Notes under the pieces: generated by a model
Databases searched by the model: none
The model's input: the letters and a program-made list of their open reading frames with translations, nothing else
Told to the model about the DNA's origin: nothing
Position numbers and translations under genes: made by a program
In this document: positions 6,699-44,122 of the stretch, piece by piece
How positions within the stretch are numbered: the first letter of the stretch is position 1
Layout: each line of letters opens with the position of its first letter
Source: Bolinopsis microptera
Lineage: Eukaryota; Ctenophora; Tentaculata; Lobata; Bolinopsidae
NCBI RefSeq assembly: GCF_026151205.1
Contig: NC_087072.1
Location: forward strand, 21,046,103-21,110,102
DNA length: 64,000 bases
Direction of reading: 5' to 3'

Positions 6699-6799
6699 TC
6701 GTCATATTGAGCAGTTTTGACTTTCTCGCGGATTTCTTCTTTAGGCTGTCCTGAAACCTCGACTATCTCCTCATCTTCCTCAAGTTCATCAGGGTCCAT
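6699..6799 (-). CDS. Alternative first exon J (acidic N-terminus joining before C2B)
   Basis: The ATG at 6799 has A at -3 and G at +4, and an in-frame TAA sits 24 bases upstream. The only AGs between are a weak cggag and a tttag directly followed by that stop. It reads MDPDELEEDEEIVEVSGQPK, then EEIREKVKTAQYD and two bases of the next codon, with donor gtacgc (phase 2). Joined to 6218 it gives QYD-D-VIAAPRS. The peptide is strongly acidic and then helical. The product would be a ferlin lacking C2A. It could instead be an internal exon using the weak cggag acceptor, so transcription evidence is decisive. Confidence 0.6.
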
Positions 6800-7536
6800 G
6801 ATACAATAAAATTCTCCGTCTTACTAAATAACGGTCAGTTGCACAACAAATCTCAACACCACAAGTGGGAAATGATCGTCCTGTAGTCAATCCGGCTACG
6901 TCCTATTTAATTCTGTATATGGAGATAACCAGCCCTAAGATTGGCAATTAAAATCTAGGCAGGGTAAGAAAGGTGCGATCGGATTGGCGGATTGACCGGA
7001 CACGTGCCCAGGTTAGATTGTCATGTGTGAACTGGTCAAGGTTTGACTGGTCGACATCCTGTGACTAATCCACCCTCATAATTGATAGGCTGGAAAAGTG
7101 CGCTGACGATTTTAGTATAACTGTGATAATTACAAAATTTCAGCACCTACCACCGGATAATTTCTAATTTTAAGGATAAGATCTTGCGATCGGGATCAGG
7201 ATAATTCGGGAAAGAAAGACGCAGCACTGAATGATTTGTCAGCCGGGGTGCAATATCATTAATCAGCGCTGATAGGTGCTGCCAATGGTATCGCATCACA
7301 GTGACTTCTCTCACAACAGTTAACTGATTAGTCAGCTATTACCGGACGGGAGACCGATCTGACCTGGTACAGAGTTGACAAATCTGAACAATTTCACAAC
7401 ATTCTACGTAACGAGACTTGCCCATCCCTCGTTCGAGACACTGATACTTTCGCCGCTAACCGACCACAATTAACAATAAACTCAGCTGAGTAATCTAAAT
7501 GGGAGGGAAAGTGAGAGGTGGGGTGTGAACACGTAC

Positions 7537-7877
7537 TTGCCGTAGTAGCGGTGGTCATTCTTGAAGATCTTCTTGATCTTGTGCTTCAGGGGCAGGTTTT
7601 CAGGGTTCATGGGTAGATTTCTCTTCTGGTTCTTCATTGACTCCATGTACTCCTTATAAGCCCTCTTTCCTCCCAGCCTTTTCTCCTTAGCTGGCACCAC
7701 AACAGTTTTCCCATCTTTATCCTTCCCTTTCTTATCTTTGGGGTCTAAGAGCTCGTCCTCGTAGAGGTACTCATCATCATCATCATAGTCGTCATCATCC
7801 ATGATGTCCCCCGGGTCATCCACCTCCAGGGTGTAGTCATCAAACGTCACCTCACTCCGACTTATCTTATCACTCAT
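7537..7877 (-). CDS. Alternative first exon I (Asp-rich N-terminus joining before C2B)
   Basis: 114 residues from the ATG at 7877, which is preceded directly by an in-frame TAG. Start MSDKISRSEVTFDDYTLEVD, then an Asp/Tyr/Glu tract (about residues 25-43), a Lys-rich stretch with KKGKDKDGK, and the end KIKKIFKNDHRYYG. Donor gtacgt, phase 2; joined to 6218 it gives YYG-N-VIAAPRS. Codon choice is GC-richer than the surroundings, as in the core exons. Alternatively atatag is a splice acceptor and the exon is internal, but its phase then does not fit the exon at 15313. I favour a first exon encoding a ferlin that starts at C2B. Confidence 0.7.
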
Positions 7878-8659
7878 CTATATCTGTTAAACAAACATTC
7901 GCCTAATGTAAACAAACGTTAAAGAAATTGACGGCAATGATTGTGTTTGTTTGTGTAGCAGCAGCTCTACTAAACCTGCCCACAGTTGCTTGTGGTAAAC
8001 TCGAATACAGGCCTCGGTCGACCCGCCCGCAACCCACTTAATTTCCATGGAAGTTGCCGGCCTTAATAGAACTACTTGAATTGTGATTGGCGGACTGAAA
8101 TTAGAGCGCAACCAACTAATTGGCTAAACGGTCAGACTTAAAGTACGCCTGAGGATTACGGAGAACGTTTGTAGGATACACAGTAGGAGGATAAAGCAGA
8201 TACTGCAGATATACTGTACTCAACAAGGCGGAAACTGGCAGGAAGTCAGGTTACTACAGACAGAGGTGATTCTAACTCTAACTAAACTCTAACTATACTA
8301 AAGGTCGGGCTAGGGCGTGTGAAGCGGTTAGCATGGCAACGCCCGCTTAAGTAAGATAAGTAACATTAACTCTGCGCTCTAGCAACATACATGGTTTATA
8401 ACTACATAACTGCTTTCAGCAATGGACCGCAGACGAAACCATCCTATGCAGACAGCTATTTATAAACATCCTACAGTCTATTGAAAATGCAAGCTACCAC
8501 TGTAGCTGTGGCAACCGTTAAGATTGCTCGGAAATGACCTATGTAAATAACAAGTCATCCTACAAAGTTCATCCCACAAAGTTCATCCCACCTACGTCAT
8601 GATTCATGAGCACAACCGGGTTCTTGAGGTTTACTAACTCACTAATCACTATATACTTA

Positions 8660-9235
8660 ATTAGATAAGAGGATAATACTAGTAATGAGAGGCCTCACAG
8701 AAAAAAGTAAGGAGACCACATACAAGATAACGTCAGAGAAGATAAGGGCCCCATAGATAAGATAATCATTCCCAAGCAAGATAATGGGCCCACAGGTTTT
8801 TACATTTATAGACAGGATAAGGTCCACATTATATGATATAGACAAGATAAGGTCCTCACTGACAAGATAAGTGTTGCACACTAAAGTAAAAGGCCTTCAC
8901 AGTCAAAATAAGGGGCCAGCAGATCTTCACAGATACCCATAGACAAGAAAGGATCTCCACAGTCAAAATAAGGTACAATATGATATGGTCCTCACAGACA
9001 GGAAAAGGTGTCCGTAGATCAGATAAGGTCCCCATAGACAAGACAAGTTTCACACCAAAAGAGAAAGCTCCTGATGACAAGAAGAACGCTACCTTCAAGA
9101 TAAGGTCCACGCAGACAAGAAAACCATTTCCGAAGAAAAAAAAGGTCCTCGAAGAGAGAATGTCACAAATACAAGTAGAGATATAGACGGATAAGATAAG
9201 GCTTGTGCAGAACAAAAGAAGCCGGCCCATTAGAA
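8660..9235. repeat. Decayed minisatellite (agacaagataaggtcc type)
   Basis: Repeated, diverged units of about 20-40 bp built around the core gacaagataaggtcc, with variants such as cagtcaaaataagg. The ORFs on both strands here are by-products of the repeat. Confidence 0.7.
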
Positions 9236-9881
9236 TAGAAACAATAGGAGCACAGTGGGGAGTACTTAACATTTTGAATGCAATCTTCTAAAACCATGGT
9301 CGTTTAAAATATTCGAAAGAATACATATTGCGGGTGGGATTTTTCAAGAACTAGATTATGTTGAAGTGAAGGTATCTAAAAGCTTGGAGAAGCGCTCCTT
9401 ATATAATCACTAGACTTATGTCTAAATCATGTATTTTCCAGACAGATTGCCGAACAAGGACTTCGCTAAACTTTACTTGGTTCAAGTCTGTGACAGTTCG
9501 ACCGTTACAGAACCATTTTCTGTCCTGTCATGTGATTACTATAACTACACCATTTTCTATCCTGTCATGTGACGCTACGATCACCGTAACTCCCATAACT
9601 GAACCGTTTTCTGGCCAATCACGGGCTGCCACGCCCTTTGGCCTCTGTTACAAGCATATATAATGCAGCCAGATTTATAACCTGTCACAGCATTAGTGTA
9701 CTCGCCCAACTAATTAATTCAAGGTCAGAGAGATTAATGGACAGTACCCAAAAAAGGAAGACAATCTCAAAAAGAAGCACTAGGCTCTGAGTACAATAGA
9801 TAAGAAGCAGACAAAGGTATCGATAAAAAATTTCCGAAACCCTGCACAATGTCAAACTGTCTAGATACACAAGGCCACAAT

Positions 9882-9970
9882 GTGTACCACAATGTGTACC
9901 ACAATGTGTACCATAATGTTCACCACAAAATGTACCACAATATGTACCACAATGTGCACCACAATATGTA
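9882..9970. repeat. 12-bp tandem repeat
   Basis: About seven units of caatgtgtacca with substitutions (ataatgttcacc, aatatgtaccac). Confidence 0.85.
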
Positions 9971-11363
9971 CCGTATGAACCTTTACATTAACCAGTCCCA
10001 GCAAAACATACTCAAATCATTACATTCACACGGGGTACTATGTGTGTACGAGGTGAGAGACTTGTTGTTGCCAGGCAGTTAAGTTAGGCTGCCGATAACT
10101 TGCAGAGGTCATCAGCCAAAACAAAACTAACCCCAGTATTGCAAGCCAGTAACTCTTGTTATATTATAGAATAGAGGCCCGCGGAGGGGGAGGGAGCGTT
10201 GTCATACCATGGTAGCAGAGTGGTGACTTGGATTGACAAAGGGGCTGTATAGGGGCGTGGTTCTTCCATTGTGCGGTCTTGATAAGAGAAGTATTTGCTC
10301 CATTAGTCTACTTGAGATGAACTCCTCCAAAAGATACGTGCTGTATAGATACTGTATGTATTGTACCGTGTTGGTCACACTGACACATCAGATCTAAACT
10401 CAGAGCACTGAGTAGATATCTCTAATATTCCATCTGAATCTCAGAGAGAGCAACCAAATTACTGGACACTAGGGCAGACTGGAGCGGACAGAGCGGTTAC
10501 CAGCTTTATTTGTCTGTCAGGTTAGCTGACCAGTTAAAAGTTCAAAGAGTAGACATCTAAGAAGAGAGAAAGGTTGGTGTCTCTCTAACTCAGGTTAATA
10601 TAAGTAGTTTATATGCTGTCTTCATGATGCCTGGTGACTGGCCCTCACTCAATCTCAACAGTTTTGTTGTACGACATGTCTTGATTATGCAAATAAATGA
10701 CAGTAATCTTGGCTGCAAGATTTTAAATTGTATTTGAGTGGATTGAATGCTTTTAGCTGAATGGTTCTTTTAAATAATCCATCGCTGAGAGAAAACATCG
10801 TGAGATTGAGCAAGTTAAGAAATGCTGGCTATGTAACAAAATTTGTCAGACGGAAGAAACCCCCCAATTCCTGGTATTGCACCATAGGGGGAATTATCAA
10901 CAGCTGGGAACTGTAAATTATGTATCTGATTTCTGAAATGCAGATCATGAATCATGATTCATGATAATGACTCATTTAAGCCTCGTTATCTTGTCACACC
11001 AAATCTCCATTGCGAAGTGAGACACTCTCACTATGCAAATCTCGTCTGCACATTCAACGGTCAAGCAGAGTCTGCTAGTGCTTCATTCCTGAACCCGCCA
11101 TTCTTATCATGGTTGATAACATCTTGTTGAGGACATCAAGCGCGGAAAATTAATCAATTATTAACAATTTAGTTAGTAGTTACTTCTTTCATATCATATT
11201 TGAGATTAATAAACACCCCCTCCCATCCAGCATCCCCTATCCAAAATAACGAATATCTTAACAGAATAACAACACATGTAGCAACATTTAGCACGCTCAC
11301 TAAACACACAGCACAAAACACACTGCACGATTAAGAAATGTATCAAACCGTTCGTCAGCTGAC

Positions 11364-11644
11364 CTATCCACAGGCTTGGAGGGACGGTTAGGAGCCCCCG
11401 GCACAGCTATTTTCTCATCTGATATCCCTTCTTTAGACTTGGCGGGAGATTTCCCTGATTTACCTTCCTTTGCACGTGCAGGTGTGTCACGTGTCCCGGC
11501 ACGTTCAGTAGTATCACGAATATCTGGGTTTGTAGGTTGGTCGAACAAGTCCTCATCATCCATGATGTCTTGTCCGTATCTTGCCTTTCCCGTATGGATA
11601 TTGCCCATGGAGATGGAGCGTACCTTCTTCCCCTTCTTATTCAT
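11364..11644 (-). CDS. Alternative exon H (Lys/Ser-rich N-terminus joining before C2B)
   Basis: From ATG 11644 (A at -3) it reads MNKKGKKVRSISMGNIHTGK, then DIMDDEDLFDQPTNPDIRDT, a KSGKSPAKSKEG basic/Ser stretch and ends RPSKPVD plus two bases. Donor gtcagc, phase 2; joined to 6218 it gives PVD-S-VIAAPRS. The frame stays open upstream to a TAA near 11757 with no earlier ATG. A pyrimidine-rich acceptor-like site (ttctcgcggtag) at about 11670 is also in phase 2. The exon could therefore be a symmetric cassette after exon 15313-15415 rather than a first exon. It resembles no domain known to me and is probably disordered. Confidence 0.65.
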
Positions 11645-14600: not shown

Positions 14601-15312
14601 GACTAGAGAAGCTATAGAGTAACCAAACTCTACAATTACCAAACAAAATTTTGTTTATCTAACTTGAGCATATTTATCAGTCGTGATGATCTCATCCGAT
14701 TGATTGGCTCTGTCAGATGTTAAAAAGAGGGACGTACAAATATTACAGTATTTACATATTATATGGTCGAAGTGTAGAAGTCTTTTTGCAAGTAAGCATC
14801 TTCAATCCAGGAGGTTTAATCTGTTTCCCCTGTGATCTGTATTTTCCCCATTTTGCAGTCCAAGTTCCCGCAGCTTAAACAGACGGAGGAATGTGGAGGA
14901 TAAAATTGGGCTTTTAGCAACAAACAGCACATAAAATAGCTTCACAATGAGCATCATGCTACAAGTAAGCGTGAGGTTGGTCATCTATAATCGTCGAGCT
15001 GCTTATTTGAACCACCAATCTACAGGAGAAGGATCATGATCCCCTCTTCCTCTCATGGTAATTAATCATACGACTCATGCAACATTCTGGGGTTGTCTTA
15101 AACTTACGAACTATAGTTTTGAGGGTTGCGCTGTCTTTTGCTTTAAAGAGTATTCCGTTACCACACTAAAGTATACAAGCTTTCTCCTAATGCTTCACGA
15201 AGGAAAAAGAACACACAAAATAATGCTCATTACTGCACCACACTAATTAACCAATTTACACGAAGCATAAAAAGTCAATGAATTACAACGACAATTTTAA
15301 GAAAGTACTCAC
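11645..15312 (-). other. Intron sequence
   Basis: 3.7 kb without a supported gene. About 12555-12715 has several copies of the motif cgttcaaata-cgtccg in both orientations. A related sequence built on ggacgttaaaatgaacg lies at 49850-49900, so this is probably a relic of a dispersed element. The small ORFs at 12974 and 13532-13962 show no recognisable features. Confidence 0.55.
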
Positions 15313-15415
15313 GATTTCTTCTTCTTGGCAGCACCAGGAGTCTCCCCCGGAGCCACTTCAATCTCCTGCTCAGTCTCGTCAGGGATCGGGTTTCCCGCTT
15401 CATCTGCTACCGTGC
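15313..15415 (-). CDS. Ferlin core exon 5 (linker between C2A and C2B)
   Basis: 103 bp, phase 1 in and phase 2 out. It reads GTVADEAGNPIPDETEQEIE and ends VAPGETPGAAKKKKS. The acceptor is ggtgttgcag and the donor gtgagt. In frame it connects the acidic end of exon 18268-18334 (DPDEEMEE) to VIAAPRSS of exon 6152-6218. That gives a C2A-C2B linker of about 70 residues, in the range of dysferlin/myoferlin linkers. The composition is acidic, then Pro/Gly, then a Lys tail, probably disordered. Confidence 0.85.
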
Positions 15416-15617: not shown

Positions 15618-15846
15618 CGCCTGGACAGTAAGGCTGATACTCAGTGGTTGTACTGAGTCTAGGAGTCTTGGAGTGGAAGAGAGGGAGTATATCTGCGTTC
15701 TTTATGGGACTTATCTCAGGATGAGAGCAAGCAGTGGACCTCCTGGTGGGACCTCCTTTCTCAGAGGGCACCCACCCCCCTCCACTATCTGACGGTAGAG
15801 GAGAGGTGGGCCGGCCTGAAGAGGAGCCACCAAACTTGTTCTTCAT
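15618..15846 (-). CDS. Alternative first exon G (Pro/Ser/Gly-rich N-terminus joining the linker)
   Basis: From ATG 15846 (A at -3): MKNKFGGSSSGRPTSPLPSD, then SGGGWVPSEKGGPTRRSTAC and a stretch ending TTTEYQPYCPG. Donor gtacgt, phase 1; joined to 15415 it gives CPG-G-TVADEAGN. The core exon 18268-18334 ends in the same phase and can also join 15415 directly. Splicing 18268 into this exon through the nearby ttgtatag acceptor is out of phase. That favours a first exon rather than a cassette. The peptide is low in hydrophobics and likely disordered; no known domain. Confidence 0.65.
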
Positions 15847-17239: not shown

Positions 17240-17243
17240 TTAA

Positions 17244-18267: not shown

Positions 18268-18334
18268 CTTCTTCCATCTCCTCATCAGGGTCAAGAGTTG
18301 GTTTAGTGTATTCCAAATAGAGGTTCAATCGACT
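18268..18334 (-). CDS. Ferlin core exon 4 (last strand of C2A)
   Basis: 67 bp, phase 0 in and phase 1 out. It reads SRLNLYLEYTKPTLDPDEEM then EE. Following the exon at 21182-21281, which ends DGKVGE, it completes the C2A fold. The strand LNLYLEYTKP equals the final beta strand seen in ferlin C2A (a hydrophobic alternation ending in Y-P). The acceptor is catcttttcag and the donor gtaagc. The following acidic tail starts the linker. Confidence 0.88.
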
Positions 18335-18441: not shown

Positions 18442-18741
18442 CTGTTCGTCTAATGAAAGGTCAGGCTCCTTATGATGCAACCTCTTTGCCAGACTGAGCT
18501 TCCTTACAGAGGAGCCCCTCCTAGCTCCCTTATCTACTGCCTCATCCTCAGAACCCCGCTCCAGCTTATGTTTGGTCAGTCTCCTAGTAGCTCTCTTTAC
18601 CAAGCCCCCCTTACTGTCCCCCTCCTGCTCCTCCTGCTCCCTGATAAGATACAGCTCGTCCAGATAGGCCTGCTCGTTGGAGGGAGACGGGACGGGTGCC
18701 CCTGAGAAACGTTCCGCCAGAGATGCTTTACGCTTTGACAT
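18442..18741 (-). CDS. Alternative first exon F (basic N-terminus replacing C2A)
   Basis: Exactly 100 codons from the ATG at 18741 (G at -3), with an in-frame TGA 15 bases upstream and no AG between. Start MSKRKASLAERFSGAPVPSP, then a Glu-rich helix (ELYLIREQEEQEG), basic stretches VKRATRRLTKHKLERG, and the end VRKLSLAKRLHHKEPDLSLD plus EQ. Donor gtgtga, phase 0, fits the acceptor at 18334. RKASLAERF near the start and RKLSLAKRL near the end look like an internal repeat, and each has an RKxS site of the kind basophilic kinases use. The product would retain only the last C2A strand. The donor is weak, so confidence is moderate. Confidence 0.68.
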
Positions 18742-21181: not shown

Positions 21182-21281
21182 CTCTCCAACTTTACCGTCT
21201 CTGTCTCTGAGTGGTACAGTAGCCTCTTGTGCTCCTAACCTAACCAAATCTTTCAGAGGGTAAACTGCTTCGCCCAGTAAC
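21182..21281 (-). CDS. Ferlin core exon 3 (C2A strands 6-7)
   Basis: 100 bp, entering in phase 2 (AA+G gives Lys) and ending in phase 0. It reads LLGEAVYPLKDLVRLGAQEA, then TVPLRDRDGKVGE. The LGEA-V-L-DL...PL-D--G---G pattern is the C-terminal part of ferlin C2A (dysferlin: FLGEAKVPLREVL). The acceptor is cttcttatag and the donor gtgagc. Confidence 0.93.
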
Positions 21282-25069: not shown

Positions 25070-26075
25070 CTAAGTCAGATGTACGCCAGATATCAAAGGC
25101 TTGACCCGCATCCCGGTCAAAATGGGCCTATTTTTTGAATCCCCTTCCCGGTCCAAATTTGACCATTTGGCTACTGGAACCAAACCGGGATTTTTGCTAA
25201 ATTTTTGAAACAAAAATTTCGTAATAATCATTGAAAAACACATTTTTCTCCCAAAATCGTACTTCAATGTCAAATTCTTTATTTAATCGTCAAGAACATT
25301 TGTATATTCTTATCGAACAAATTTGACATTATCCTTGCCATCCGACTCCTCGATAAGTTCGATGCTACTAAAACTTGCTTGATCGATTCCGTGAACATTT
25401 TCCAATCCCCAGAGTCATGCTCCCATCATCAGAGTCATCATCTAAATTCCTGGAATCTCTGTTTAGAGTTTAGACTGGAAATCATCTGTCAGGGACTGGA
25501 GCTTATAGTGATCGGTTTCATAGTTAACTGCCCTCAGATTGTATTTCGCAGAAAAGGATTTATCTCAACGTTTTCTAGTACTCCAGTTTTTTTCCTCATA
25601 TTTAGTCACATCATCGCTCACTGCATTATTTGGTGATCTGGATCCGTCTTTGTTGTCAGGCTGTAGCTGATTCCATAATGCCTTATCATCGTCAGTTTCT
25701 TTTACTGAATCAGCAGTGTCACTTTTCCCGATCTGCACAACATCATTGCCGCCACTTATTCTTGTCAGAAACTCCCCTCGAGTTTGGAATCTGGAACTCC
25801 TTGGTGGACTGAGCTTTTGTTCCCACATTTTTTTTGTGATGGACTGCGACTTTCGGGTTCAAGCTTTCTCCAAAGTTTTCAAAAATGGATCGAACAACGT
25901 GATGTTTATAAAGCTAGAGGTCCCGGTCTTAATCCCGGTCCCTGGATTTTTTTAATACTCCAAAATTCAGGCCCCGGTCTTAATGCTGGTCCCGATTTTA
26001 GTCCCGGTCCCAGCTTAATCCTTTTCCCGGCATTTTTTCCCAGTCCCAGTCCCGGCCAAAAAAGGTGGTCCCGTT
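25070..26075 (-). pseudogene. Degenerate coding relic bounded by gtcccggtc-rich DNA
   Basis: Between two blocks rich in cccggtc/gaccggg motifs, the minus strand holds broken reading frames with protein-like composition. One spans 25565-25828 (DDKALWNQLQPDNKD, DDVTKYEEKNWSTRKR) and one 25070-25273 (NPGLVPVAKWSNLDREGD), separated by stops. It looks like a decayed element-encoded protein, possibly a DNA-transposon N-terminal region. I do not recognise the family. Confidence 0.35.
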
Positions 26076-26090
26076 AGAGCCGTGCCATAT

Positions 26091-29386: not shown

Positions 29387-29475
29387 TTGTTTTTGAGGAT
29401 CTTCTCATAATCATAGACCTTTATCAAGAGCATACTCTCTTCTGTCAGAGGCCTGTACCTCTTCCATGTAAACGT
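29387..29475 (-). CDS. Ferlin core exon 2 (C2A strands 4-6, calcium loop 3)
   Basis: 89 bp, phase 0 in and phase 2 out. It reads TFTWKRYRPLTEESMLLIKV, then YDYEKILKN. Dysferlin C2A has FEWDLKGIPLD...LHVVVKDHETMGRN here. The DYE of VYDYE corresponds to the loop-3 D-x-E/D calcium ligands, so the shared half of C2A supplies intact loop-3 acids. The acceptor is ctccacag and the donor gttagt. Confidence 0.93.
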
Positions 29476-29682: not shown

Positions 29683-29738
29683 CTCGTTCCATTCCGGGTT
29701 AAGCTCACTGTGTATAACACGTGTTGTTCTCTTGATTC
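29683..29738 (-). CDS. Ferlin core exon 1 (shared C2A exon, common acceptor of five first exons)
   Basis: 56 bp, phase 1 in and phase 0 out. It reads (G)IKRTTRVIHSELNPEWNE. Human dysferlin exon 2 begins VKKRTKVIKNSVNPVWNE at the same structural position, right after its first exon. The acceptor atctttcag is strong. Five upstream exons end in phase 1 after a C2 strand-3 sequence, and any of them can join here. Confidence 0.93.
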
Positions 29739-30030: not shown

Positions 30031-30217
30031 CTTCTAAATCTAGTAAGACATGAGGGTCGCTGTAACCAAAACGCTCTACGTTTTGGAGATTTTGAGCATT
30101 CCTGACCAGAACTTGGACTATCCCCTCTTTACTCATAACCTCATTATATTCCCGGTAACTGGAGATATGATCGTCATCTTCCGAGGATCCGTACCGTCCC
30201 AAAAACGGGCCGAACAT
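30031..30217 (-). CDS. Alternative first exon E (C2A first half, variant E)
   Basis: From ATG 30217, preceded directly by an in-frame TAA with no intervening AG: MFGPFLGRYGSSEDDDHISS, then YREYNEVMSKEGIVQVLVRN and AQNLQNVERFGYSDPHVLLD, ending LE plus one base. Donor gtaagt, phase 1; joined to 29738 it gives LE-G-IKRTTRV. GIVQVLVRNAQNL and SDPHVLLDLEG are C2 strands 1-3. In loop 1 the first calcium ligand is Glu and the second Asp. It is the closest to the shared exons and may be the default form. A ctccag acceptor inside the exon is an alternative reading. Confidence 0.8.
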
Positions 30218-30474
30218 TTACAATATCACATACAAAACGGTGCACAACGGAGAAAATATTAAACTAATAAATAGGCGGGCTGAGAGTAAAGTATAAGTAA
30301 GCTGGAAGTTTCAAAACCACATTGTCTATTCATAAGTTAATAAAGCTACTCTGTAGCCACGGCTGCAGGAAATGCCAGGCCCGAAACTACTGAGGTGGAA
30401 GCTAAAAAAATGCACTATTATGTAATTAAGAGTAGTTTATTGGTTACAGTAAGCATGGAGGGTGCGTTCTTGGT

Positions 30475-30985
30475 GGGGCTACTGTGAAGGGGCTACTGTA
30501 AGGGGCTACTGTAAGGGGGCTACTGTAAGGGGGTTACTGTAAGGGGGCTACTGTAAGGGGGCTACTGTAAGGGGGCTTCTGTAAGGTGGCTACTGTAAGG
30601 GGGCTACTGTAAGGGGGCTACTGTAAGGGGGCTACTGTAAGGGGGATACTGTAAGGGGGCTACTGTAAGGGGGCTATTGTGGGGCTACTGTAAGGGCGCT
30701 ACTGTAAGGGGGCAATTGTAAGGGGGCTATTGTAAGGGGGCTATTGTGGGGCTACTGTAAGGGCGCTACTGTAAGGGGGCTACTGTAAGGGGGCTACTGT
30801 AAGGGGCTACTGTAAGGGGGCTACTGTAAGGTGGCTACTGTAAGGTGGCTACTGTAAGGGGGCTACTGTAAGGGGGATACTGTAAGGGGGCTACTGTAAG
30901 GGGGCTACTGCAAGGGGGCTATTGTAAGGGGGCTATTGTAAGGGGGCTATTGTGGGGCTACTGTAAGGGCGCTACTGTAAGGAAA
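30475..30985. repeat. 14-bp minisatellite
   Basis: About 36 units of gggggctactgtaa with variants (gtggctactgtaa, gggcgctactgtaa, gggggctattgtaa). Higher-order blocks sharing the variant order repeat at least twice (around 30640-30780 and 30880-30980). Confidence 0.93.
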
Positions 30986-30989
30986 TGGG

Positions 30990-33738
30990 GAGGGTAGATG
31001 GGGCTACTTGTTGGGAAGGCAGTGCACATTGCACACTAAGGTCATGGTCATCGGGAGACCTTGAACAATATAGAAACCTTCCTTAAATTATTGAATAAAA
31101 GTGAAAAACTGGAGATAGTAAAACCAAGTTTAATCCTCCCGGATCACTTCTACGAAAAATGAGGATGATAAAAAAGAAGCAGTAATGAAGATTGAAAGAG
31201 ACGGGAGGAAGGATTTTCACAATAGAAGATGGGAAGAGTCAGATGTCTACTGTAATCCCAGCAGCAGATCTCAGACTTAAATACGCAGATTACTAACTAA
31301 TTCCGCTGAATTAGAAACTTAGAATAATTTAGGACAATAGAATATTATAATTGCATTCGATGCCAAAATACGCTGAACCAACGTCGAAAATGAAACGGCT
31401 CTGAAGAAGAATAAACATTGACAGTCTACCACTTATTTCTATCTGACTGAGACGAAGTTTAATTCATTTTTGATTTGTAGACCATAGGTCTCAACAATCT
31501 GGTTCATATGAAGCAAGCTATTATAACTATAAATGAACGGCAGGAGAATAGGACGTGGAGAAGTAGCGCAATACTCCACTGATAAGGTTGGCACACAACA
31601 AAAGCGAGGCCACCAACAAGCTTCATTACACGGTGCTGACACACGTCTCTTACACTCACTGTCTACTGTCTAGGGTTCTGATTGTTAAATATATATATAA
31701 ACCTGCTGATGATCACCAATAATGGTGTGGTCGTGAGCTGAAAGCTAATTCCTAATCTAGTGATCAGTGTACAGCACACACACACCCACACACCCACACA
31801 CCCACACGCTCAGATAATTATATGGGACGAAGTGCAGTGGGTCAATTTGGCACGTGCACTGTATTTCACTGCAGGTATTTGCACGTGGACAATGTCTCAA
31901 TGTAAGCATTTGCAGATGCATTTTCATACAATAAAATGAGGTACCACCTGCGTGAAGATTGCTGAAGAAGTACCTGTTTTTACTTATAAGTATAAATACG
32001 CTAATACTTCTGTACAATTGGCCAACGCGTTTATTTTAAGAAGACGTGAGTTACTGAGTGGAGCGTATTTATATTTTATTCTTCGTTCAAGTTCGTTCAA
32101 AGGGGCTTATGATAAGAGATATTGGCTGAGATTACAGCGAAGTTTTGACCTTAAGTTTTTTAGGGAAAGATTAGACATGGCAGTTGTTTTTACTATGCCT
32201 TGTTTAGAACTTTTAAAAGGTATTTAACTAAAGGGAGGTTACCTCGTTTATCAGGTCCTCGTTAAAAGGTATTCACTAACTTTACTCGTTATAACCGAAA
32301 AAGAATACTGTCTGTCAGCTTTACAATTTACATCAATACTTTTAAGACTTTAAAAAGCTGAAGTAACTAAAAAATGCAAATTTACTAATCGATGATCCCA
32401 AAGTGTGCCATTTCAGTTAATTACACAAGAACCAATACAACAACAATTTGAAAACGAGTTCCGTATGCAATGCTGGATTGCGAAATGTGGGTGAGGTCTT
32501 ACTGTCTAAAGCAAATGACAACCATTTAAATCATAATAACAATTAGGGGGCTAAGCATCACGTCAGATACTTTACATGAATATTGAATACTCATCTTACT
32601 TACTTATCTCGTTACAAAATACTCTTCTAAAGGCTCCTCACTGAACTCTCCTTAACACCAACAATCTAATTGTAATGCTGATCCTCATAAAACGCACAGG
32701 TTACACTCTTCTTACACTCTGAACTGAGCCAGTCCAGGTCCCCTTTAGTGTGGACAAAGCAACAATAAGCCAACTCAAAGAAAAGAGCCGAGCCTCTGGT
32801 GTCAGGGTCCAGGGACAAATAGGGGATAGGAGCGAAAAGGAGCGGGTGATAATAAAGAGGCACTGCTTGGGCATTCACCATTTTAGAAATACTCGGCCCT
32901 GGAAACAACTCCACGTGTCCGTCATGTGACCAACAAGAAGAAACTTCCAGACAGCAGATGCAGATGCAATTTCCAGACCCAATCAGAAGATGACATGGAG
33001 TTGTTGAAAGGAAAAATACCGGCCCAGAAACATGCCAACCAGAGAGGACCCTATCGTTTGTAGAGGTCTCTTCTTCGACGCTGGTACATCCGACTCAGAG
33101 TCTCCGAGCCGTCTTTCTTAACAACAGCAGCTTGGTTGACTAAACACCTAGTCTTTAATGTGCACTGTGCAGAATAGAATAAACCCTATTGCACGTCACA
33201 AGATTGTAAGATTGGCTCGCCGGGGAGGGTTCACACTAAATCCAGGGTCAATCAGGTAGGGTATCATTCAATACTTCAATAGTGTAGTCATTGGTCCGTA
33301 GGTGCTTACTCTGCTATGCATGAGCATTTTGTGAGTTATGCAGTTTATCTTGCAAAACTGTCTCTCAAAAAGTCGTTACCATGCAGGCTTCTAACGTGGC
33401 CGCCTCCCGCGTAGCGCGGGACGATTGTTCCAATGATGGCAAAACAAGACAAGAGTAGAATTAGGGTACGTGAAGTTAGCAACAGGAAAAACGAATGGCA
33501 CCTCCCCCGCGATTGTTAACCACCATTTAGTAGTTGTAGCCTAGCGGGCACTGTTTGTAACTAGTTGTCATTGTGATTAGAGCAGGGGGGAGAATAGCAA
33601 CACTGCGCTTACAGAGTCGCCCAATGACAGACATTGTTACCGAAGAATGGAGCAAAATCACAAATTACACAAACACGCACATAATCTCTAAGCTGCTTCT
33701 GTTGTGTGATTATATAACAGGTCACTAAAGTTATTTAG
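30990..33738 (-). other. Region between first exons D and E
   Basis: No ferlin exon found. It holds a short CA/CCACA microsatellite at 31776-31808 and the orphan ORF at 32664-32881. Otherwise nothing recognised. Confidence 0.5.
32664..32881 (-). CDS. Orphan small ORF, function unknown
   Basis: ATG at about 32881 in a good context (AAAATGG) starts MVNAQAVPLYYHPLLFAPIP. The frame continues YLSLDPDTRGSALFFELAYC and ends FYEDQHYN before TAG, about 71 residues. Base composition resembles the real exons. I tested it as a sixth C2A first exon: its best donor (gtaagaag) is phase 1 but creates a stop at the 29738 junction, and the residues do not look like C2. It could be an unrelated small gene, a lineage-specific exon or chance. 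Confidence 0.25.
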
Positions 33739-35315: not shown

Positions 35316-35535
35316 CGTCAAGTTGAATAACGACGAAAGGGTCGGGCAGTCCGAATGTTTTAAGGATAGCCTCGCCAGGACCCATACAAGTAGCATTCCT
35401 CACATGAACTATCACATAATTCAGATCTTCTGGCATATTCTTCACAACCACCTCCTTCTCCTGGAACCCTTTATCCTCCACTTGGGCGCTGGACGGGTGA
35501 TCATGTGGCCCTGCACTTGACCTTCTGTCGCTCAT
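35316..35535 (-). CDS. Alternative first exon D (C2A first half, variant D)
   Basis: From ATG 35535 (A at -3), with an in-frame TAA 27 bases upstream and no AG between: MSDRRSSAGPHDHPSSAQVE, then DKGFQEKEVVVKNMPEDLNY and VIVHVRNATCMGPGEAILKT, ending FGLPDPFVVIQLD plus one base. Donor gttag, phase 1; joined to 29738 it gives QLD-G-IKRTTRV. LNYVIVHVRNAT and DPFVVIQLDG are C2 strands. In loop 1 the first ligand position is Lys and the second Asp (PDPF), so calcium binding should be weakened. Confidence 0.8.
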
Positions 35536-35990
35536 AATCCGAACAAAACAACAACGATATTAAGAAAGTTAGGGGCTGGGGCACGCTATTTTGGGGCTAG
35601 GTTACAGTTACAGTTGCTTCATTTCCGAGTTGATAGCGGATTGTCCCACTTTATACAAGCTACCTAGCTCAGGAGTGGTTAGCCCAGTATGGAAACCACA
35701 TATATTACTTCTCCAGGAAGAGGTTAATCACCTATTAGTGACCACTAAAACTTTCTGGTGATCGGCTTAAAAATTACACGACATGGTAATTTTTAACAGA
35801 TAGCATTTATTAATTCAGTACAACAATAATTGCTCGCTGATTCATGATCACGTGACAGCAATTTATCAGTAGATCTTGGAGTTTTACTGATGATAACCTT
35901 TATAAGAGCATCTTAGGTCCAATTACTCACTTACCAGATTACAATGAACAGTTACAATCAGTTGGATCAGAAGGTTAACACCACACTTAC
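35536..35990 (-). other. Interval between first exons D and C
   Basis: 455 bp containing no recognised element. If both flanking exons are first exons, this must contain the exon D promoter, and it starts at exon C's donor. Confidence 0.45.
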
Positions 35991-36198
35991 GTTCGTGTGA
36001 GATCCCAGAGAGCTGGATGAAGATAGTGCCTCCACACCGGTAAGCTCCACTTCTCCACAGCTCCGAGTTAGGATCTAAGTGCCAGTTTATAACTGTGACA
36101 TTAAGTCTGCCGTGATTAAGTCTGCCGTGTATCCCGGAGGCGTGTCGTCTCCGTCCAGCAGGACGGCTTACTCCTAACTTCTGCACGAACCTATCCAT
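35991..36198 (-). CDS. Alternative first exon C (C2A first half, variant C)
   Basis: From ATG 36198 (A at -3, G at +4; in-frame TAG 30 bases upstream and no AG between): MDRFVQKLGVSRPAGRRRHA, SGIHGRLNHGRLNVTVINWH, then LDPNSELWRSGAYRCGGTIF and IQLSGISHE plus one base. Donor gtaagt, phase 1; joined to 29738 it gives SHE-R-IKRTTRV. RLNVTVINWHL and GTIFIQLSG fit C2 strands 1 and 3, but both loop-1 aspartates are replaced (Trp and Arg) and strand 3 is four residues longer than in the other variants. A 15-bp tandem duplication encodes HGRLN twice. A gtgcag acceptor inside the exon is a less likely alternative. Confidence 0.68.
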
Positions 36199-36469
36199 TA
36201 TATCAGGACATGGGACAATTGTAAACTAAATTTCGAGTAGAAAGTAAGGACACTGCATACATTGTGCATTCTGCACGGGTATGCTGGAAACTTCTGAGAT
36301 ATCTTGTTACGGCTCGGTACCGGAGCAATGCTGATGGTGAGTAGCTTGGAATGGGTACAGAACGAGGGGCAAAGTCTTAGTTCCTGTATCCTGCCCATTG
36401 TACATCCGAAGTAATATAAGTCGATATCCTATCTAGAACTATCCTAGAACAAAGCTCACTTATAGGAGA

Positions 36470-36847
36470 AGCTCTGCCGTTTTCTGACAAAAATTTTAAG
36501 TAATATTTTTGAAATTTTTGATTTTTTGTCTAAAATTTGACCAATGGTTTCAACGGGTCATTTTCATCAGAAGATGGAATTTCTGCCGATGTGGCTGTAC
36601 TACTACTTAAGCACTTTTCTATCAAATTCAAATTCAAATTTGTAATTTTTAGGCACTTTCCCAGAAATTAGGATGAAACCTTTTCATAAGTCTCAAAAGT
36701 CAACAAAACACCTTTACTTAGAAACATAGTGGGTGCAGTTTAAATTTGACACCAGCTAGTCCAGAGCAGAATTGAAATCTTTAAAGTCAATTTGCACAAA
36801 GTGACCCTTAGTGTACTTAAGCACTTTTGTCAGAAAACGGCAGAGCT
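36470..36847. mobile_element. MITE with 23-bp terminal inverted repeats
   Basis: Left end agctctgccgttttctgaca and right end tgtcagaaaacggcagagct are perfect complements. The interior is AT-rich and non-coding. A candidate 3-bp target duplication (aga) flanks it. Superfamily not determined. Confidence 0.85.
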
Positions 36848-36848
36848 A

Positions 36849-39800
36849 GAGTTTTGAGTATCGGGTAGGATATATCAAAGAAAGCTAGACTCCACCAATT
36901 CCAAGCAATATCTAGGTGGATTGACGCATGGATCCAACACTGAAGATTTGACTTTGAAGATCCAACTTCAATGAACCCTCTATTTTTGACCTTGATATGT
37001 CTGGGAATCTGACTCTAGAAGTTGATCCTGGTCACTTAACTTGAAACAGTTTATAACCAACTCCGTGTAAAAGTGTTAAAGTGTAAAAGTTTGTCCAAAA
37101 CTTCTCTTCAAAACCAGAACAGATGACTGAGTATTGTTTAGAGATCTGAATTTTAATTTCAATACATCTTAAATAGTGGTAAAATTTAACTTGAGTTGTA
37201 ATATAATGATTGGTGCCTCTTAAAAATACGTTATGAGTACATGATTTAGAATCTAATGGCTGAATAGTTAGTTAGTGGAATGTAATACGTGAAATTGGAA
37301 GCAGAGAAATTTTGCAACAACAATCACTCTCTCTCTCTCAACAATCACATCTGAGTACTTGCTTCTTTGTTAGGACTGTGCTAACAAGCTTACTTCCTTC
37401 AGGCATAAAATGTATTCAACAACACAAAAAACTGTCGCTAATGTGGCTTCTCAAGCTTTCTTGCGAACGTTTATTTATTAGATTGTATAAGTTTAGCAAC
37501 TGGTGCAATGATTGCTGCCACCAACGTAGACTTCTAATGCGGAATCAACAGACCGAGTCACCATGGTAACGTGGTAGACGTATTACTATTAGTCTTTCCC
37601 CAGATTCCTCAGACACTTAAACAGACAAAGTAAACGCTTTCAAAGAAGTATTTTCAAATTAGATCGCAAGTGTATAATAAAGCCTTGCGGACGAGGAATA
37701 TACCATTCCCCCCATATTCAACAACAAATAAAGCATTGAAAAGCAATCACGAGCAGTCACATGTACCCTCTCATCAATAAGAGCAGTAAAAGTTCAATCT
37801 CACTGCCCGGAAGTTGCTCGCAATTAAGAGCTCACAAGAGGGGAAGCTCCCATTTATGGGGGCCAACAACAAGTATAATACTGCTCTCTCTCTCTCCCCA
37901 CTCTTTCTCCCCTCTCAGTCTCTCCCCTCTAACAATTCCTTCACCTATTGGTATCTTAATTATTAACCACCGGCAACTCTTCATTATCTTAGTAGATCTT
38001 TATGTATTCGCTATTCATAAGCATTGAAAGGAGAGCCATTTACACTACATTTATATCGATTTTAGAAAGATTAGCAAACATGGTTTAAACTCTGCGAACC
38101 CTACCAAGGTAGGTAGCAGGGTGCTAATGTGTTGCCAAGTGCCATCTTGCCAGGAAATTAACCTTAAAATTATTTAAGACTGGTGAAGGAAGCGACCTTG
38201 CCAATTTGGAGCTAGGTGATTTTCTGAACACTATCGACCTTCCAGGAGAACGTATAAATTGTGACGATATATAATGATGAAAAGGCTATCTCCAAGACGA
38301 AGATGCTTCAAAGAATTGATTTTGGGAAAACAGCAAGTAAAACTAGGAAATTGCTCCTGTTACATAGGTCACTGAGTGAAGATGTGAGGTGGCCTCTCAA
38401 TGAAAGATGTTTGAATTCTGAAACAAAGTCGCCTCCTCACAACTCACAATGCACTAGACAACCACATAGCGACCTCACTTCCTCATTATCTTTACTTTGT
38501 TCTAGTAAGTAAAAAGATCCAGTTAGACCAACTTAATTCCTCTTAGTTAATGACGGCCGGCTAAAGGATCTGAAGATTAATGTCACTGGATGCAAGGTGT
38601 GGTCGCAAATAAACCACATTTCTTTTAAAAGAGAGCTTTCTGACATGTCAGAACATGGAATGATGGAATTGCCAGATTATTCATTTCTCTGGAAATGGAA
38701 GAGATTTGTAAGTTTACTGCTGACCCTCTTGGTAAAATAAACATGGTAGTCTGTATAAATCTGGAATAGCAGTGGAAACAACGGGTTAACAACTAAGAGT
38801 TTCATGCCAAAGCAATTGTCAGTGTTTAAGAACTGCTAAAACTACTAAAACTAAAAATTGAAGATATTCTTAGAATATTCCTAAAAGTTCTAGAATGGGC
38901 ATTTCTTCATAAATATGGAATTATATAGTACTGAATATTGCCTTGCAACATATAATGCTTTGTTCCTGTATGTTTACGGGGAAAAATGCCAAGGCAATCT
39001 TATTTGAAGATGATCCAGCCTGCTTAGGAAAGCAACTTGACAGTTGACATACATGTCAGCGATGTGGGCCCATTGCTGTCTTGAGCTTCACTAGAGGAGT
39101 TATAAGCAGACAACTCTCTGTTTGAATTGACGAATCTTAGAGAAAACCGTCCGAATTGGGGCCTTTAGGTGCATATTCAGGGGCTGGTAAAACAATGGTA
39201 TATAAAGGTGTCGGGCGTCTGCGAGAAAACAGATAGATCATGATACCAAATTACGGGAGACAAGGTTAGCCATGTTTGAAATTCTAGTTAAGATTGAAGA
39301 GCAGCCAACAACTACTCCTCAACCTGTAATAATATTAGTTATGACATGGGCAGCAGTATGTTTATTGGTTCATAACAATTCCATCCTAGGTTCTAATTAG
39401 TGATTTGATAAAAAAAGGTCAACATGACAAGAACAGTAGCTGAAGCCTGAATTACGAAAAGTAAATGTCAGCAACGTCAGCACAAGATAGATCACTATCA
39501 GGAAGTAGTGATAAAAACTTAATAAACCAAAATTTAGTCTTATATTTCCACTATACCACCGGTCTAACGTTGTATTGTCTAATAGCGAATACAACCGCTG
39601 GGGTGATATCCTTGATTGGTCCAAAATAACTCTGGCTTAATGTGAGCCACAATCACATACCAAGTTCAGCACAAAATATAGAAGAAAAAACAAAAAACAC
39701 ACGCAAAAGTGAGATCTGTGATACTTCTAGCACCCTTTCGCAGATCCCAGCAGGTGGTTGAGAAATAACGAAGACTAATGAATAAGATTTGCGGTAGTGT

Positions 39801-40675
39801 CCTTGCTTTAATCGCAATTAGCAGCTCCAAAATGCAGCTAAACACTGGACATGGGGGAGAGATCTGTCTATAGTGGGGATAATCAGGGGTAGGCTGAGAT
39901 AATGTAACCTAACAGGATCCGGAGTAGACATTTTTAATTAAACGATAAAGATCGAGGAAATGGAGCTGCTTTAACCAAGGATTAATAACAAACCTAATCT
40001 AGATTCATGCGATATATTTCAACATCCTGACCTTTAATTGGTACCTAAGGGTCAATATCATGGCCTAGGTTAAGTAAACCAAAGATTTTCAACTCACATA
40101 CGGGCTAACCATTTAGAAACCTCTGCAATGCCTAGATTTATGGATGCATGAGGATTTGAAAGTTTATGACAGAAAAAGAAGAATGATCGTAAAACGCGAT
40201 AAAAACATCAACGAAGTGTAATTAATACCTTCACTTCAAAAGTGATTTTAGGAGCTGTAATTGAGGAGCTGCATTTTCGGAGCTTCAAATATTATATTTT
40301 CCTTTTTCCCGTGAGAGGGAAAAATTGACTGGTAGTGCTTTCTTTGGTATCAGGTGTGCCAGAAAACTTTGAGAAGTGGCTCAAGGTAAGTACCTATTAC
40401 ACGAAATAGGGAGAGAAGACTGGAAGTGAAAGTATAAACACCAAAAAGACACCTTATTACCAGACATAGCACATTCCAAGGCAGCGTCTACAAATCAGAA
40501 ATATTTTCCATTGGCGAGACTCCCGTCTAGTAGCTGGGTTACGACCAGGATTATTAGAGTAAAATAAAAGCCGAGATTATTCCGCAATTAACTTGGCTAA
40601 GGTTCCACAAGACAAATCAAACGGTACAACAGGAAGCACTGATTTTAAGCTAGAGTGAAGTTACCTGGCTCTCAC
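36849..40675 (-). other. Region between first exons B and C
   Basis: 3.8 kb without recognised genes. Small CT runs at 37316-37332 and 37886-37925. Several short plus-strand ORFs (37312-37569, 37761-38027, 38261-38512) show no domain signals. Confidence 0.5.
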
Positions 40676-40928
40676 CTGAATACTCCACCTCCACGAAGCG
40701 ATGTGCGGGACCGGAAACAAGCGGAAGTGACACTGCCTTCCTCACCCTCACTGAAATTTGCCCAGGACGGCCACTAGGATTGAACTGCTGAAGATCAGGT
40801 TCCTGTGTTGGTGCTAGTGGGTTCCTCCTCTCCTTCTCCCTTTCTTCCGTCTTCCTGTCCTTCTTGGAGCTCATCTCCATTGCTGCATCCTCCGAGTTGG
40901 CGGACAGGAACCTAGACGCTATCGTCAT
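40676..40928 (-). CDS. Alternative first exon B (C2A first half, variant B)
   Basis: From ATG 40928: MTIASRFLSANSEDAAMEMS, then the charged stretch SKKDRKTEEREKERRNPLAP, then PSGRPGQISVRVRKAVSLPL and VSGPAHRFVEVEYS plus one base. Donor gtgaga, phase 1; joined to 29738 it gives EYS-G-IKRTTRV. GQISVRVRKAVSL and HRFVEVEYSG match C2 strands 1-3. Both loop-1 aspartates are lost (Leu and His), so this variant probably lacks classical calcium binding at loop 1. The N-terminal Lys/Arg/Glu-rich segment is likely helical. A start at the Met at residue 18 or 20 is also possible. Confidence 0.78.
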
Positions 40929-41460
40929 GTGACGAGAACTCAGCAACACAAACCGGCAGAACTATGGTACGATTTGAAACAATCACCCTGCACCAGGTCC
41001 TTATATCAATATTTTTCCAATCAAAGCTAGCAGGGTAGTAACAGATGTCAAGACCTGACGTGCATTGGGCGGCCGATTGTTGGTTGCCAGCTCATTGGTC
41101 AGCTCCTGAGCACCTGACCCGACCACGTGCGTACTGTTATTATATTATACCTTCGTAATCGCTATTCACCAAAGCCACTACTTTATATATTTTGCTCTCA
41201 TAATCAACTGATAAACAGGTCCCTTATTGGTGCGGGCTATTTCGCCTAATCTTGGCAATAGTTCCACCCTTTTCTCCGTACACAGCGCGGAGATGACTCA
41301 CCATTAACAGGACCTAATGTGTGGTAGCTAGCAGTAATCACGTGACTCTGGTGGACAGGTGTGCGAGTATGTCAACTGTGAGGATGTTAAGCTACCCCGT
41401 TGCTTGTTTATCAGAGAGCTATCTGTCGATTAGAGCTAGCTGAGTAGCTGACACGCCCTT
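40929..41460 (-). promoter_or_regulatory. Candidate promoter region of first exon B
   Basis: GC-richer than its surroundings, with CACGTG-type sites (ccacgtgcg near 41122, atcacgtgactc near 41338) and no repeats. The role is inferred only from its position upstream of exon B; no TATA box or initiator is convincing. Confidence 0.25.
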
Positions 41461-43974
41461 CAACAAGTACACTAATCCAATAATTATTCTGCTCCTTCAT
41501 CAACACATCTGCTCCTTCATCAACACAACCATTCGTCCCCAAGATCAGTGGCCCGGTATCATTTATAATCAGTTGCCAGGCCAGACGGGGAGTGATTAAT
41601 AATCAGGCCTATTTCCAATCCTGGCTGTACAATCGGTAATCTCATTCAGAGAACAATAGGGTCAGAGTAGCAGTATTGTCAGAGTCGTCCCGAGCTCATC
41701 AAACTGAGGAGGCAGTACACGGTGCGGTGTGGGAGAAAATTACTAAATCTTCTCCGTGACATGGTGAAAAGTGTGCCGTTGGACGAAGGAGTTACTGTAA
41801 CAGCTGTAACATTAAAGGGCTGGGTTTTGGTTACAGCGCTGTTAGGTGAAATTAACGGAGGGATCGCTTTGACAGTGGTTCAGCAAGAATTTGGAAACGA
41901 TATTTTATTCTAATAGTAATCCATTAATTAAATAAACTGTGGATTAATCCTCAGCTTCATTCAAAATGAGGTTATGGAACATGAATTGGAAGATTAAAAA
42001 AGTTACTAGGTAAAAATGCAAAGGACTGATGACTATTGACATCTCTAATGACCAAGTGACCGGTCTCATAGATAACAAGGGTATCTATAGATATAAATAT
42101 ATAATGAGGATGGGTTTTAAACCGTTTTTTGCCTTTACTTTAGGTAGAACGTGAAGGAAATGTCAAAATATCGCCGGATGATGAATATCCATGTAAGCAA
42201 GACATGATAATAAGCGAATAAAGTTACTAATGATCATGACAAAGCCCTTATATATTGCTTTCTATCATCAGCTAGGGAAGTGGAAAATACGTTATTCGAC
42301 ATGACGTGCTCATGTTCACAAATCAATCAGGATTGGCAAACAAACATCAGGATATCACGAGAAAAAACAAGAATAGTTCATGATCTCGCTATGTCTACCA
42401 CTTAAAAGCGATTAACGTTGTAGCTCTACAAGGTCTGTCCAAGAAAGTGTTACACCAGAAAATTGGTAAGAGCAAACACTTACAACTACAAGTGTTATAG
42501 GCAGTATGACATCAAGAAAGCAATACAATCATAGCAACGTGTTTACAGACGTTAAGTATTTGAAGTAAACTTTTCCATCAAAACAAGGCAGGGGTATTTT
42601 ACATCAGAACAACTTGATCCATAAAGTACTTCTACTGTTAACACTTAAACGTACTTTTAATGTTTTAGTCACACACTAAAGCTCTGAGATTAAACTAGGG
42701 AAAAGAAAGCAATACAATCATAGCAACGTGTTTACAGACGTTAAGTATTTGAAGTAAACTTTTCCATCAAAACAAGGCAGGGGTATTTTACATCAGAACA
42801 ACTTGATCCATAAAGTACCTCTACTGTTAACACTTAAACGTACTTTTAATGTTTTAGTCACACACTAAAGCTCTGAGATTAAACTAGGGAAAAGATGAAA
42901 GAAACATGTTTAAAATGAGCATGAAAGTAACATGTAAAAAGGCTGGATTTTGAGAGGAACCTTTCGAAATTGTTGGAACTCAGTTTCTAATTTCCTACCT
43001 TCCTAATAATAACGAAAGGTTGTCGCTATTTGACCTTTTATAACAGTCAAGAAATAGCGACAGACCACTGATGGGTTTGGTAGTTTCAGTTTACAATTAT
43101 ATTGAAAACAAGCCTGGCTCTCAGTGGTAAAAGTGATAAACATACTCGCATAATGTTGCGCAAAACTTAATAGTAAACTGTTCTGAAGAACAACCAACTG
43201 ACCTGATGGTTCATTGGAAAGCTATAAAGGGAGCAGTTTTTCATATTAATCTCCCATCCGAGATTAATAACAACACGAGGAGGCCGAGGGTAAGGCGAGT
43301 TATATAATATGAATTGGAATAATCATAGAATAACTGACGGATAAGGGCCAATGAAGGTCGGAGCCGTCAGTACCACGGGACCTAATTGGGCAAAGTGTCC
43401 GCTAATGTAACTAATACATCCTGGAGGAGCGAGCTGTTACACCAGCAAACAAGGAGCGTGCTGTTACACCAGCAAAAAAAACTGCAAAAAGTAACAGAAA
43501 CAATAGCCCTGATACTTGTCCGAGATTCTGGAAACTGCAAGGTAACAGAAATAAAAGATACTTCTCCGAGATTCCGGAGCCTTGGTATCACCCTTGCAGT
43601 TAACATATTGAATTAGTCACATTTCTGCTCATATAATAGTATAATGCAACGGATGAGACACACAAGAATCGAAGATAGGTTATTTTAATATAAAATAATG
43701 ACGTGATATCTAAAGAACAATATCTCAAAAGTTGTAAAATTGAAAGTTGTCAAATTGAAAGTTTTGTCAAATTAAAAGTTGTCAAATGAAGCTCTAATAT
43801 TATAAAATCCTACTCAATGCCTGTTGCAATTTTAAATACCTGAAATCCAGCTGAAGGGAGTGATAATCAGTGATCACCAACTTCATCTGACAACACTTTG
43901 AGTATAATCGAGAGAATTTGTTACTCTCTCACGAGTAAATGAGATACGGCTAATTAAACTAATTTGTCACTGAC
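41461..43974 (-). other. Region between first exons A and B
   Basis: No host exon recognised. Contains the 189-bp tandem duplication at 42516-42893 and short repeated tcaaattgaaagttg units at 43730-43790. The ORF at 41722-41913 lacks domain features. Confidence 0.5.
42516..42893. repeat. 189-bp tandem duplication
   Basis: Two adjacent copies beginning gaaagcaatacaatcatagc (42516 and 42705). They are nearly identical; I saw one clear difference (acttctactg versus acctctactg). That suggests a recent event. Confidence 0.95.
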
Positions 43975-44122
43975 CGTCGAGCTCGAGATCCACAAATGGG
44001 TCGCTCTCTCCGAGAAGATCTCTGTTAGGAAGTTTTGCAGCAGTCTTAACTTGTATGATCAGACATCCCTCCTGACCCTTAAAGTCGACAGGAGCTCCAG
44101 CAGCTCCGCTTTTCTTACCCAT
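43975..44122 (-). CDS. Alternative first exon A (C2A first half, variant A, calcium-ligand type)
   Basis: From ATG 44122: MGKKSGAAGAPVDFKGQEGC, then LIIQVKTAAKLPNRDLLGES and DPFVDLELD plus one base. Donor gtcagt, phase 1; joined to 29738 it gives ELD-G-IKRTTRV. GCLIIQVKTAAKL and SDPFVDLELDG are textbook C2 strands 1-3. The D-LLGES-D spacing keeps both loop-1 calcium ligands, the only one of the five variants to do so. The frame stays open upstream through a tgtgtag acceptor-like site, so more N-terminal sequence from an unseen exon is possible. As the outermost exon it may mark the main promoter. Confidence 0.8.

Follow-up and report, generated by a model that had tools for sequence, protein, structure and literature searches.

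At least four putative alternative first coding exons for the C2A domain of one ferlin gene in the ctenophore Bolinopsis microptera

We analysed a 64,000-nucleotide (nt) stretch of DNA from the ctenophore Bolinopsis microptera (contig NC_087072.1, positions 21,046,103 to 21,110,102), hereafter the window, which holds on its minus strand the 5′ half of a ferlin gene, cut by the window end at position 1, and ten stretches that an original prediction had proposed as alternative first exons of this gene. Rebuilding the chain on the minus strand from 29738 to 1 yielded 16 core exons (E2–E17), all joined at GT-AG junctions and all consistent in phase, which confirmed that the core holds together without the extra exons. 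The chain amounts to 723 codons, or 773 residues with the extra exon A1 in front. A Protein Data Bank (PDB) sequence search with the core retrieved myoferlin as the best match (E = 3e-174), along with dysferlin (1e-173) and otoferlin (2e-115), and the myoferlin alignment of the core with A1 in front runs over residues 13–487 and 482–772. Pfam scored three C2 stretches, FerI (71.1 bits) and FerA (40.2 bits) above cut-off, whereas the match to the start of FerB fell short of it. Both the gene structure and the ferlin match mark the DNA as animal. The gene is one animal ferlin, of the kind associated with membrane repair, and of the dysferlin/myoferlin type, whose C-terminal C2 domains, DysF region and single transmembrane segment would be encoded beyond the window end. 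In a tblastn comparison of the pattern stretches of viral (8) and prokaryote (23) contigs, no ferlin was found among them.

The core exons that matter most here encode C2A and its surroundings. E2 (29683..29738, acceptor phase 1) is a single shared exon that opens the second half of C2A, E3 (29387..29475) bears loop 3 of this domain, E4 (21182..21281, acceptor phase 2) supplies its later strands, and E5 (18268..18334, acceptor phase 0) its last strand and a linker. E6 (15313..15415) carries the C2A–C2B linker behind a weak phase-1 acceptor (score −0.5), and E7 (6152..6218, acceptor phase 2) leads into C2B. The remaining exons, E8–E12 (5693–5562, 5170–5026, 4812–4567, 4304–4088 and 2563–2383) and E13–E17 (2217–1998, 1541–1339, 1193–1008, 634–524 and 50–1), all on the minus strand within 1..5693, encode C2B, FerI, C2C, FerA and the start of FerB. 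All ten proposed stretches are indeed present on the minus strand at their predicted places, five upstream of E2 (A1–A5) and five downstream of it (B1–B5), and the four acceptors onto which they had been thought to splice (29738, 18334, 15415 and 6218) coincide with the starts of core exons in phases 1, 0, 1 and 2, respectively.

The second half of C2A is apparently present only once. When the window was searched in six frames with the core protein, headed by A5, every core exon was found a single time; the other matches were A5 itself, A1 (E = 0.22) and one chance match, with A2–A4 missed. Because such a search could miss a strongly diverged copy, we added a profile of the C2A second half built from known proteins alone, which returned E3 (E = 4e-4) and E2 (E = 5e-4), then C2C (0.6) and noise, with one match at 45011–44928 (3.4). 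The motif NPxWNE occurred once in 3447 six-frame open reading frames (ORFs) of at least 12 residues. The A exons thus have no recognizable second halves of their own in the window. Separate genes or tandem ferlin copies were rejected within the window, as each core exon and the second half were found once. Comparison of the exon neighbourhoods at the DNA level (400 nt on each side) disclosed only overlap between neighbours and a 22-base match between B3 and B4.

Upstream of E2, each of the five A stretches runs without a stop from an ATG to a phase-1 donor, as E2 requires and as had been predicted, with last bases at 43975, 40676, 35991, 35316 and 30031 and donor scores of 5.6–12.1. On the minus strand, A1 (43975..44122, donor 6.8) spans 49 codons plus 1 base and A2 (40676..40928, donor 11.3) 84 codons plus 1 base, with a hydrophilic tail preceding its C2A first half. 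The candidate A3 (35991..36198, donor 7.3; 69 codons plus 1 base) is C2-like by strand pattern only, while A4 (35316..35535, donor 5.6) and A5 (30031..30217, donor 12.1) comprise 73 and 62 codons plus 1 base. Single A exons are too short for Pfam: A1 (17.5 bits) and A5 (12.9 bits) fell below cut-off and A2–A4 gave nothing. For this reason, we fused each of them to E2–E5 and scored the product against Pfam C2 alongside controls. E2–E5 alone reached 54.2 bits, and all 18 control joins to E2 remained within 52.4–55.8 bits. These controls comprised eight minus-strand ATG-to-donor ORFs, hand-picked from 27 non-A rows (53.0–55.8 bits), as well as six plus-strand ORFs and B1–B4 forced onto E2 (52.4–54.8 bits); the plus-strand ORFs are six of ten listed, and of the other four, three had a junctional stop codon and one duplicated another ORF. 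The joined products of A1 (80.8 bits, +26.6), A5 (75.9, +21.7), A4 (71.7, +17.5) and A2 (67.8, +13.6) exceeded every control, and these four exons therefore qualify as first halves of C2A; with A2, the C2 profile was matched from position 1.

Profiles built from the A halves without the one under test, and ranked among untrained ORFs, again placed A1 first (1/2156, E = 1.2e-4), as they did A5 (1/1932, E = 0.0071) and A4 (1/1867, E = 0.019). When a profile was built from known and core C2 halves, free of any A exon, only A1 was found (E = 4e-4); A4 ranked seventh (E = 2.4), A5 outside the first 16 and A2 573rd, and A3 went unreported. No further A exon was detected elsewhere in the window by profile, the next best match having an E of 0.32. 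The shared acceptor 29738 can thus be joined in phase by the start-codon exons A1, A2, A4 and A5, and also by A3. Two repeats lie among these exons: a 189-base tandem duplication of 99% identity at 42514–42891, between A1 and A2, and an array with a 14-base period at 30446–31038, just upstream of A5.

Downstream of E2, the B stretches make up a more uneven set. B1 (18442..18741, donor 8.6) has 100 charged, low-complexity codons and ends in phase 0, fitting E5; B2 (15618..15846, donor 7.6) has 76 codons plus 1 base in phase 1 to E6; B4 (7537..7877, donor 6.4), acidic and then basic, has 113 codons plus 2 bases; and the short B5 (6699..6799, donor 3.5) has 33 codons plus 2 bases, the latter two in phase 2 to E7. 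B3 (11322..11644) is a long ORF, also on the minus strand, that is unsupported as a phase-2 first exon: its donor scores −0.2, a value attained by 41.8% of all minus-strand GT dinucleotides, and its best donor, 11464 (8.1), lies in phase 1 and mismatches 6218. The predicted phases of these five stretches hence stood for B1 (phase 0, last base 18442), B2 (phase 1, 15618) and, clearly, B4 and B5 (phase 2, 7537 and 6699), but not for B3. The B5 donor is weak and that of B3 is poor. An isoform starting at B1 would lack most of C2A, and a candidate isoform starting at B4 would be C2A-less. None of the B peptides reached the cut-off of any Pfam family, and none had a PDB relative at E < 0.5. An additional minus-strand ORF at 25622–25828, the eleventh to start at an ATG, encodes 69 hydrophilic codons up to a phase-0 donor (5.3), with a codon score (−0.001) as coding-like as that of A4; it is mismatched to E4 (phase 2) and would fit E5 if E4 were skipped.

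Codon use was scored with a model trained on the core and compared with 106 null ORFs and with left-out core exons. B4 (0.498), B5 (0.299), B1 (0.205) and A1 were each above all but one of the null ORFs; the one that outscored B1, B4 and B5 is a simple repeat. A2–A4 were equalled by 7–10 null ORFs, and B2 and B3 by nine each. Overall, at most 10 of the 106 scored as high in nine of the ten listed exons, and none of those nine fell below the left-out core exons (−0.173 to 0.429). We also scored phase blindly, taking the best donor of at least 5 for each minus-strand ATG ORF of at least 28 codons between 6218 and 50000 (28 rows). Six of the nine qualifying listed exons (A1, A2, A5, B1, B2 and B4) matched the next core acceptor, while A3, A4 and B3 did not and B5 fell below the donor threshold. 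Among other ORFs, 5 of 17 matched, about the one-third chance rate, one row lying out of frame on E6; two more rows, out-of-frame ORFs on A4 and B3, gave no match. For A4 the blind choice was wrong, the C2 domain being restored only by the donor originally assigned to it. Phase agreement does count as an argument, though as a weaker one than first put.

We consider it probable, on these grounds, that at least four alternative first coding exons for C2A (A1, A2, A4 and A5) serve one ferlin body. A number of results pull the other way. The join of A3 to E2 scored 55.5 bits, inside the control range, and even when cut to its C2 part A3 reached 56.1 bits, a hair above the top control. The leave-one-out profiles missed A2 (rank 56/2186) and A3 (141/1846), so that the case for A2 is made by the joined test and that for A3 solely by its strand pattern. 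Stronger, out-of-phase donors exist for A3 (after 35935; 10.7, phase 0), where the ORF would be extended by 35935–35990, and for A4 (35404). The codon score of A5 is ordinary, being reached by 33 of the 106 null ORFs, and at −0.199 it lies just under the left-out core range; its synonymous part is unremarkable in A2, A4, A5, B3 and B5 (19–78 of 106 as high; 47 of 106 for B5). ORFs of at least 75 codons are in moderate excess in the B region (six, vs three on the opposite strand and a resample mean of 1.71), and the ten listed exons do not include the longest one. At the starts, A1 is preceded by an in-frame phase-1 acceptor (44154, score 3.8) 32 nt before its ATG; TATAWA precedes one of the ten starts, vs 23% of random positions, that is, no TATA enrichment; and the CpG ratios at the ten starts (0.52–0.97) compare with a random mean of 0.70 and a 90th percentile of 0.97. 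As for the rival donors, splicing of A3 (35935) or A4 (35404) into E3 was rejected, since it gave 22.8 and 24.0 bits vs 23.5 for E3–E5 alone, with no C2 gain.

The alternative that survives best accepts the array of C2A halves and regards the B stretches as chance or other open frames that are not ferlin first exons, which we judge quite possible, if short of an even chance. It draws on the poor in-phase donor of B3 and the weak one of B5, on the borderline codon scores of B2 and B3, on ORF lengths only moderately beyond chance, and on the absence of Pfam and PDB relatives given above. It is countered by B1 and B4, whose codon use exceeds that of all but one null ORF and whose in-phase donors score 8.6 and 6.4. 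B1 and B4 appear to be credible exons, B2 and B5 weaker ones, and B3 fails on its donor. What stood of the claim of one ferlin body with at least ten alternative N-termini is that four exons complete the same C2A; the count of ten did not, given a doubtful A3, a failing B3 and weak B2 and B5. We accordingly regard it as unlikely that all ten first exons exist as originally listed.

The sequences flanking the ATG codons speak to how the exons are entered. An in-frame stop lies 0–96 nt before the ATG in all ten listed exons, as predicted, at distances of 72, 33, 27, 24 and 0 nt in A1–A5, the ATG of A5 directly adjoining an in-frame TAA, and of 12, 84, 96, 0 and 21 nt in B1–B5. The parallel claim that no convincing acceptor intervenes is borne out for eight exons, which show no positive-scoring site between stop and ATG, but not for A1 and B2 (1.6 and 0.2). 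A2, A4, B1 and B2 contain additional positive-scoring acceptor sites inside the exon, the scan of the B exons having covered their first 80% only. The acceptor consensus gives the core acceptors themselves scores anywhere from −0.5 to 10.5, so it is a weak discriminator; a threshold of zero would itself lose one of the 16 core acceptors (E6, −0.5). In A2–A5, translation must begin within the exon, unless the exon is entered at a weak internal site, while A1 could also be entered by splicing. These features support the designation of alternative first coding exons.

The same alternative N-termini could nevertheless be chosen by splicing from a common non-coding leader or from a trans-spliced leader, with no separate promoters, a scheme that we hold to be possible though somewhat doubtful. 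In its favour, the A1 acceptor at 44154 ranks in the top 3.6% of minus-strand AG, and the best acceptor-like sites within 400 nt upstream of A3, A5 and B1–B5 rank in the top 2.2–6.2%, leaving room for a spliced 5′ leader, whether shared or trans-spliced. Nor do the ten starts show TATA or CpG enrichment, although many animal promoters have neither signal. On the other hand, chance alone should produce acceptor-like sites of such strength within 400 nt of DNA like this, the best sites of A2 and A4 rank only in the top 9.6% and 13.2%, and no leader exon was identified. The promoter array of the original prediction is thus no more than possible: each first coding exon may have a promoter of its own.

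The residues of the calcium-binding loops differ among the A exons. When aligned to synaptotagmin-7 and synaptotagmin-1, A1 keeps both Asp positions of loop 1, and in the synaptotagmin alignment loop 3, on the shared E3, retains its D and E and has K as its last ligand residue; we take the aligned loop-1 and loop-3 positions to be calcium ligands. A2 lacks both loop-1 Asp positions in the alignment. A4 and A5 keep the second one (in PDP/SDP) and, as read from the sequence, have a Glu near or at the first, the A4 alignment starting only at the PDP motif; A3 has no motif of the PDP/SDP type. The A1 product aligned with dysferlin chain 4iqh over 4–121, nearly its whole length, and with chain 4ihb only from residue 24 (the SDP motif) on. 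These chains are presumably the two dysferlin C2A variants, and the difference is consistent with the calcium-dependent and calcium-independent dysferlin pair. C2A is held to decide the calcium response of ferlins and which membranes are bound, as judged from work on dysferlin. The choice of loop 1 may alter calcium or lipid dependence, and the isoforms would be expected to differ in their dependence on calcium.

It could also be that some A exons arose by duplication of a single true first exon and have decayed or are not used, which we find improbable. Pairwise identity between the C2 halves is indeed low (7/28 to 15/34), and both loop-1 Asp residues occur only in A1; yet all five A exons remain open from ATG to phase-1 donor, four still score as C2, and ferlins often have C2 domains that lack calcium ligands. 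A very improbable last option, a single long transcript in which the A exons are internal and several C2 halves follow in series, could appeal to the phase-1 acceptor at A1 and to the equal phases that permit serial joining, but A2–A5 have in-frame stops 0–33 nt before their ATG with no positive-scoring acceptor between, the positive-scoring acceptors inside A2 and A4 ahead of the C2 part are all in phases 0 and 2, A3 and A5 contain none, and half C2 domains in series would be unlikely to fold.

Upstream of the gene, GC skews of 0.59 (46001–48000) and 0.39 (56001–58000) mark strongly strand-asymmetric repeat tracts. A minus-strand endonuclease domain at 61130–61660 (Pfam Exo_endo_phos, E = 5.8e-9) looks like part of a non-LTR (long terminal repeat) retrotransposon, and a stretch at 53634–54113 without a Pfam match is presumably reverse-transcriptase-like.

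Alternative first coding exons for C2A, the reading that we favour, would operate as follows. The exon for the first half of C2A, that is, its first strands and calcium-binding loop 1, would exist as an array of divergent versions, at least four in number and possibly including A3. Each would bring its own start codon, be used one at a time and splice in phase 1 to E2, so that E2 and E3 would supply the rest of the domain, loop 3 included; loop 1 would depend on the variable exon, and loop 3 would be the same throughout. A second set (B1, B4, perhaps B2 and B5) may start downstream and put a charged tail in front of C2B, with no complete C2A. One ferlin body would in this manner be steered by interchangeable front ends. 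In its fullest form, with about ten first exons (eleven with 25828–25622), of which five would exchange loop 1 of C2A and another five or six would leave the domain out, we think the scheme is doubtful.

The arrangement is an enlarged variant of that of human dysferlin (DYSF), which has two alternative first exons (canonical and v1) giving calcium-dependent and calcium-independent C2A. In both genes, alternative first exons encode the first half of C2A and join a shared second exon, and the junction falls at roughly the same place within C2A; there are two in human, whereas here there would be four or possibly five, if not more, alongside candidate starts for C2A-less forms. Like this locus, UGT1A and plectin splice many start-codon first exons to one common body, but they belong to other protein families, and their separate promoters are established, while here such promoters are only possible. 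A ferlin body without C2A is also known from FER1L6-type ferlins and short otoferlin isoforms, for which vertebrates use a separate gene or promoter; here the candidate B exons would serve this end from inside the gene for the full-length protein. Clustered protocadherins likewise combine arrayed variable first exons with a constant part, with the difference that in them whole extracellular domains vary and the choice differs between cells.

If the set of ten or eleven exons were true, one locus would give calcium-dependent, calcium-independent and C2A-less ferlins, a range that vertebrates obtain only partly, and from separate genes. Four or five front halves of C2A on an identical second half would amount to a natural loop-1 swap experiment. 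The locus would also show ferlin diversity arising by first-exon choice within one gene, besides gene duplication.

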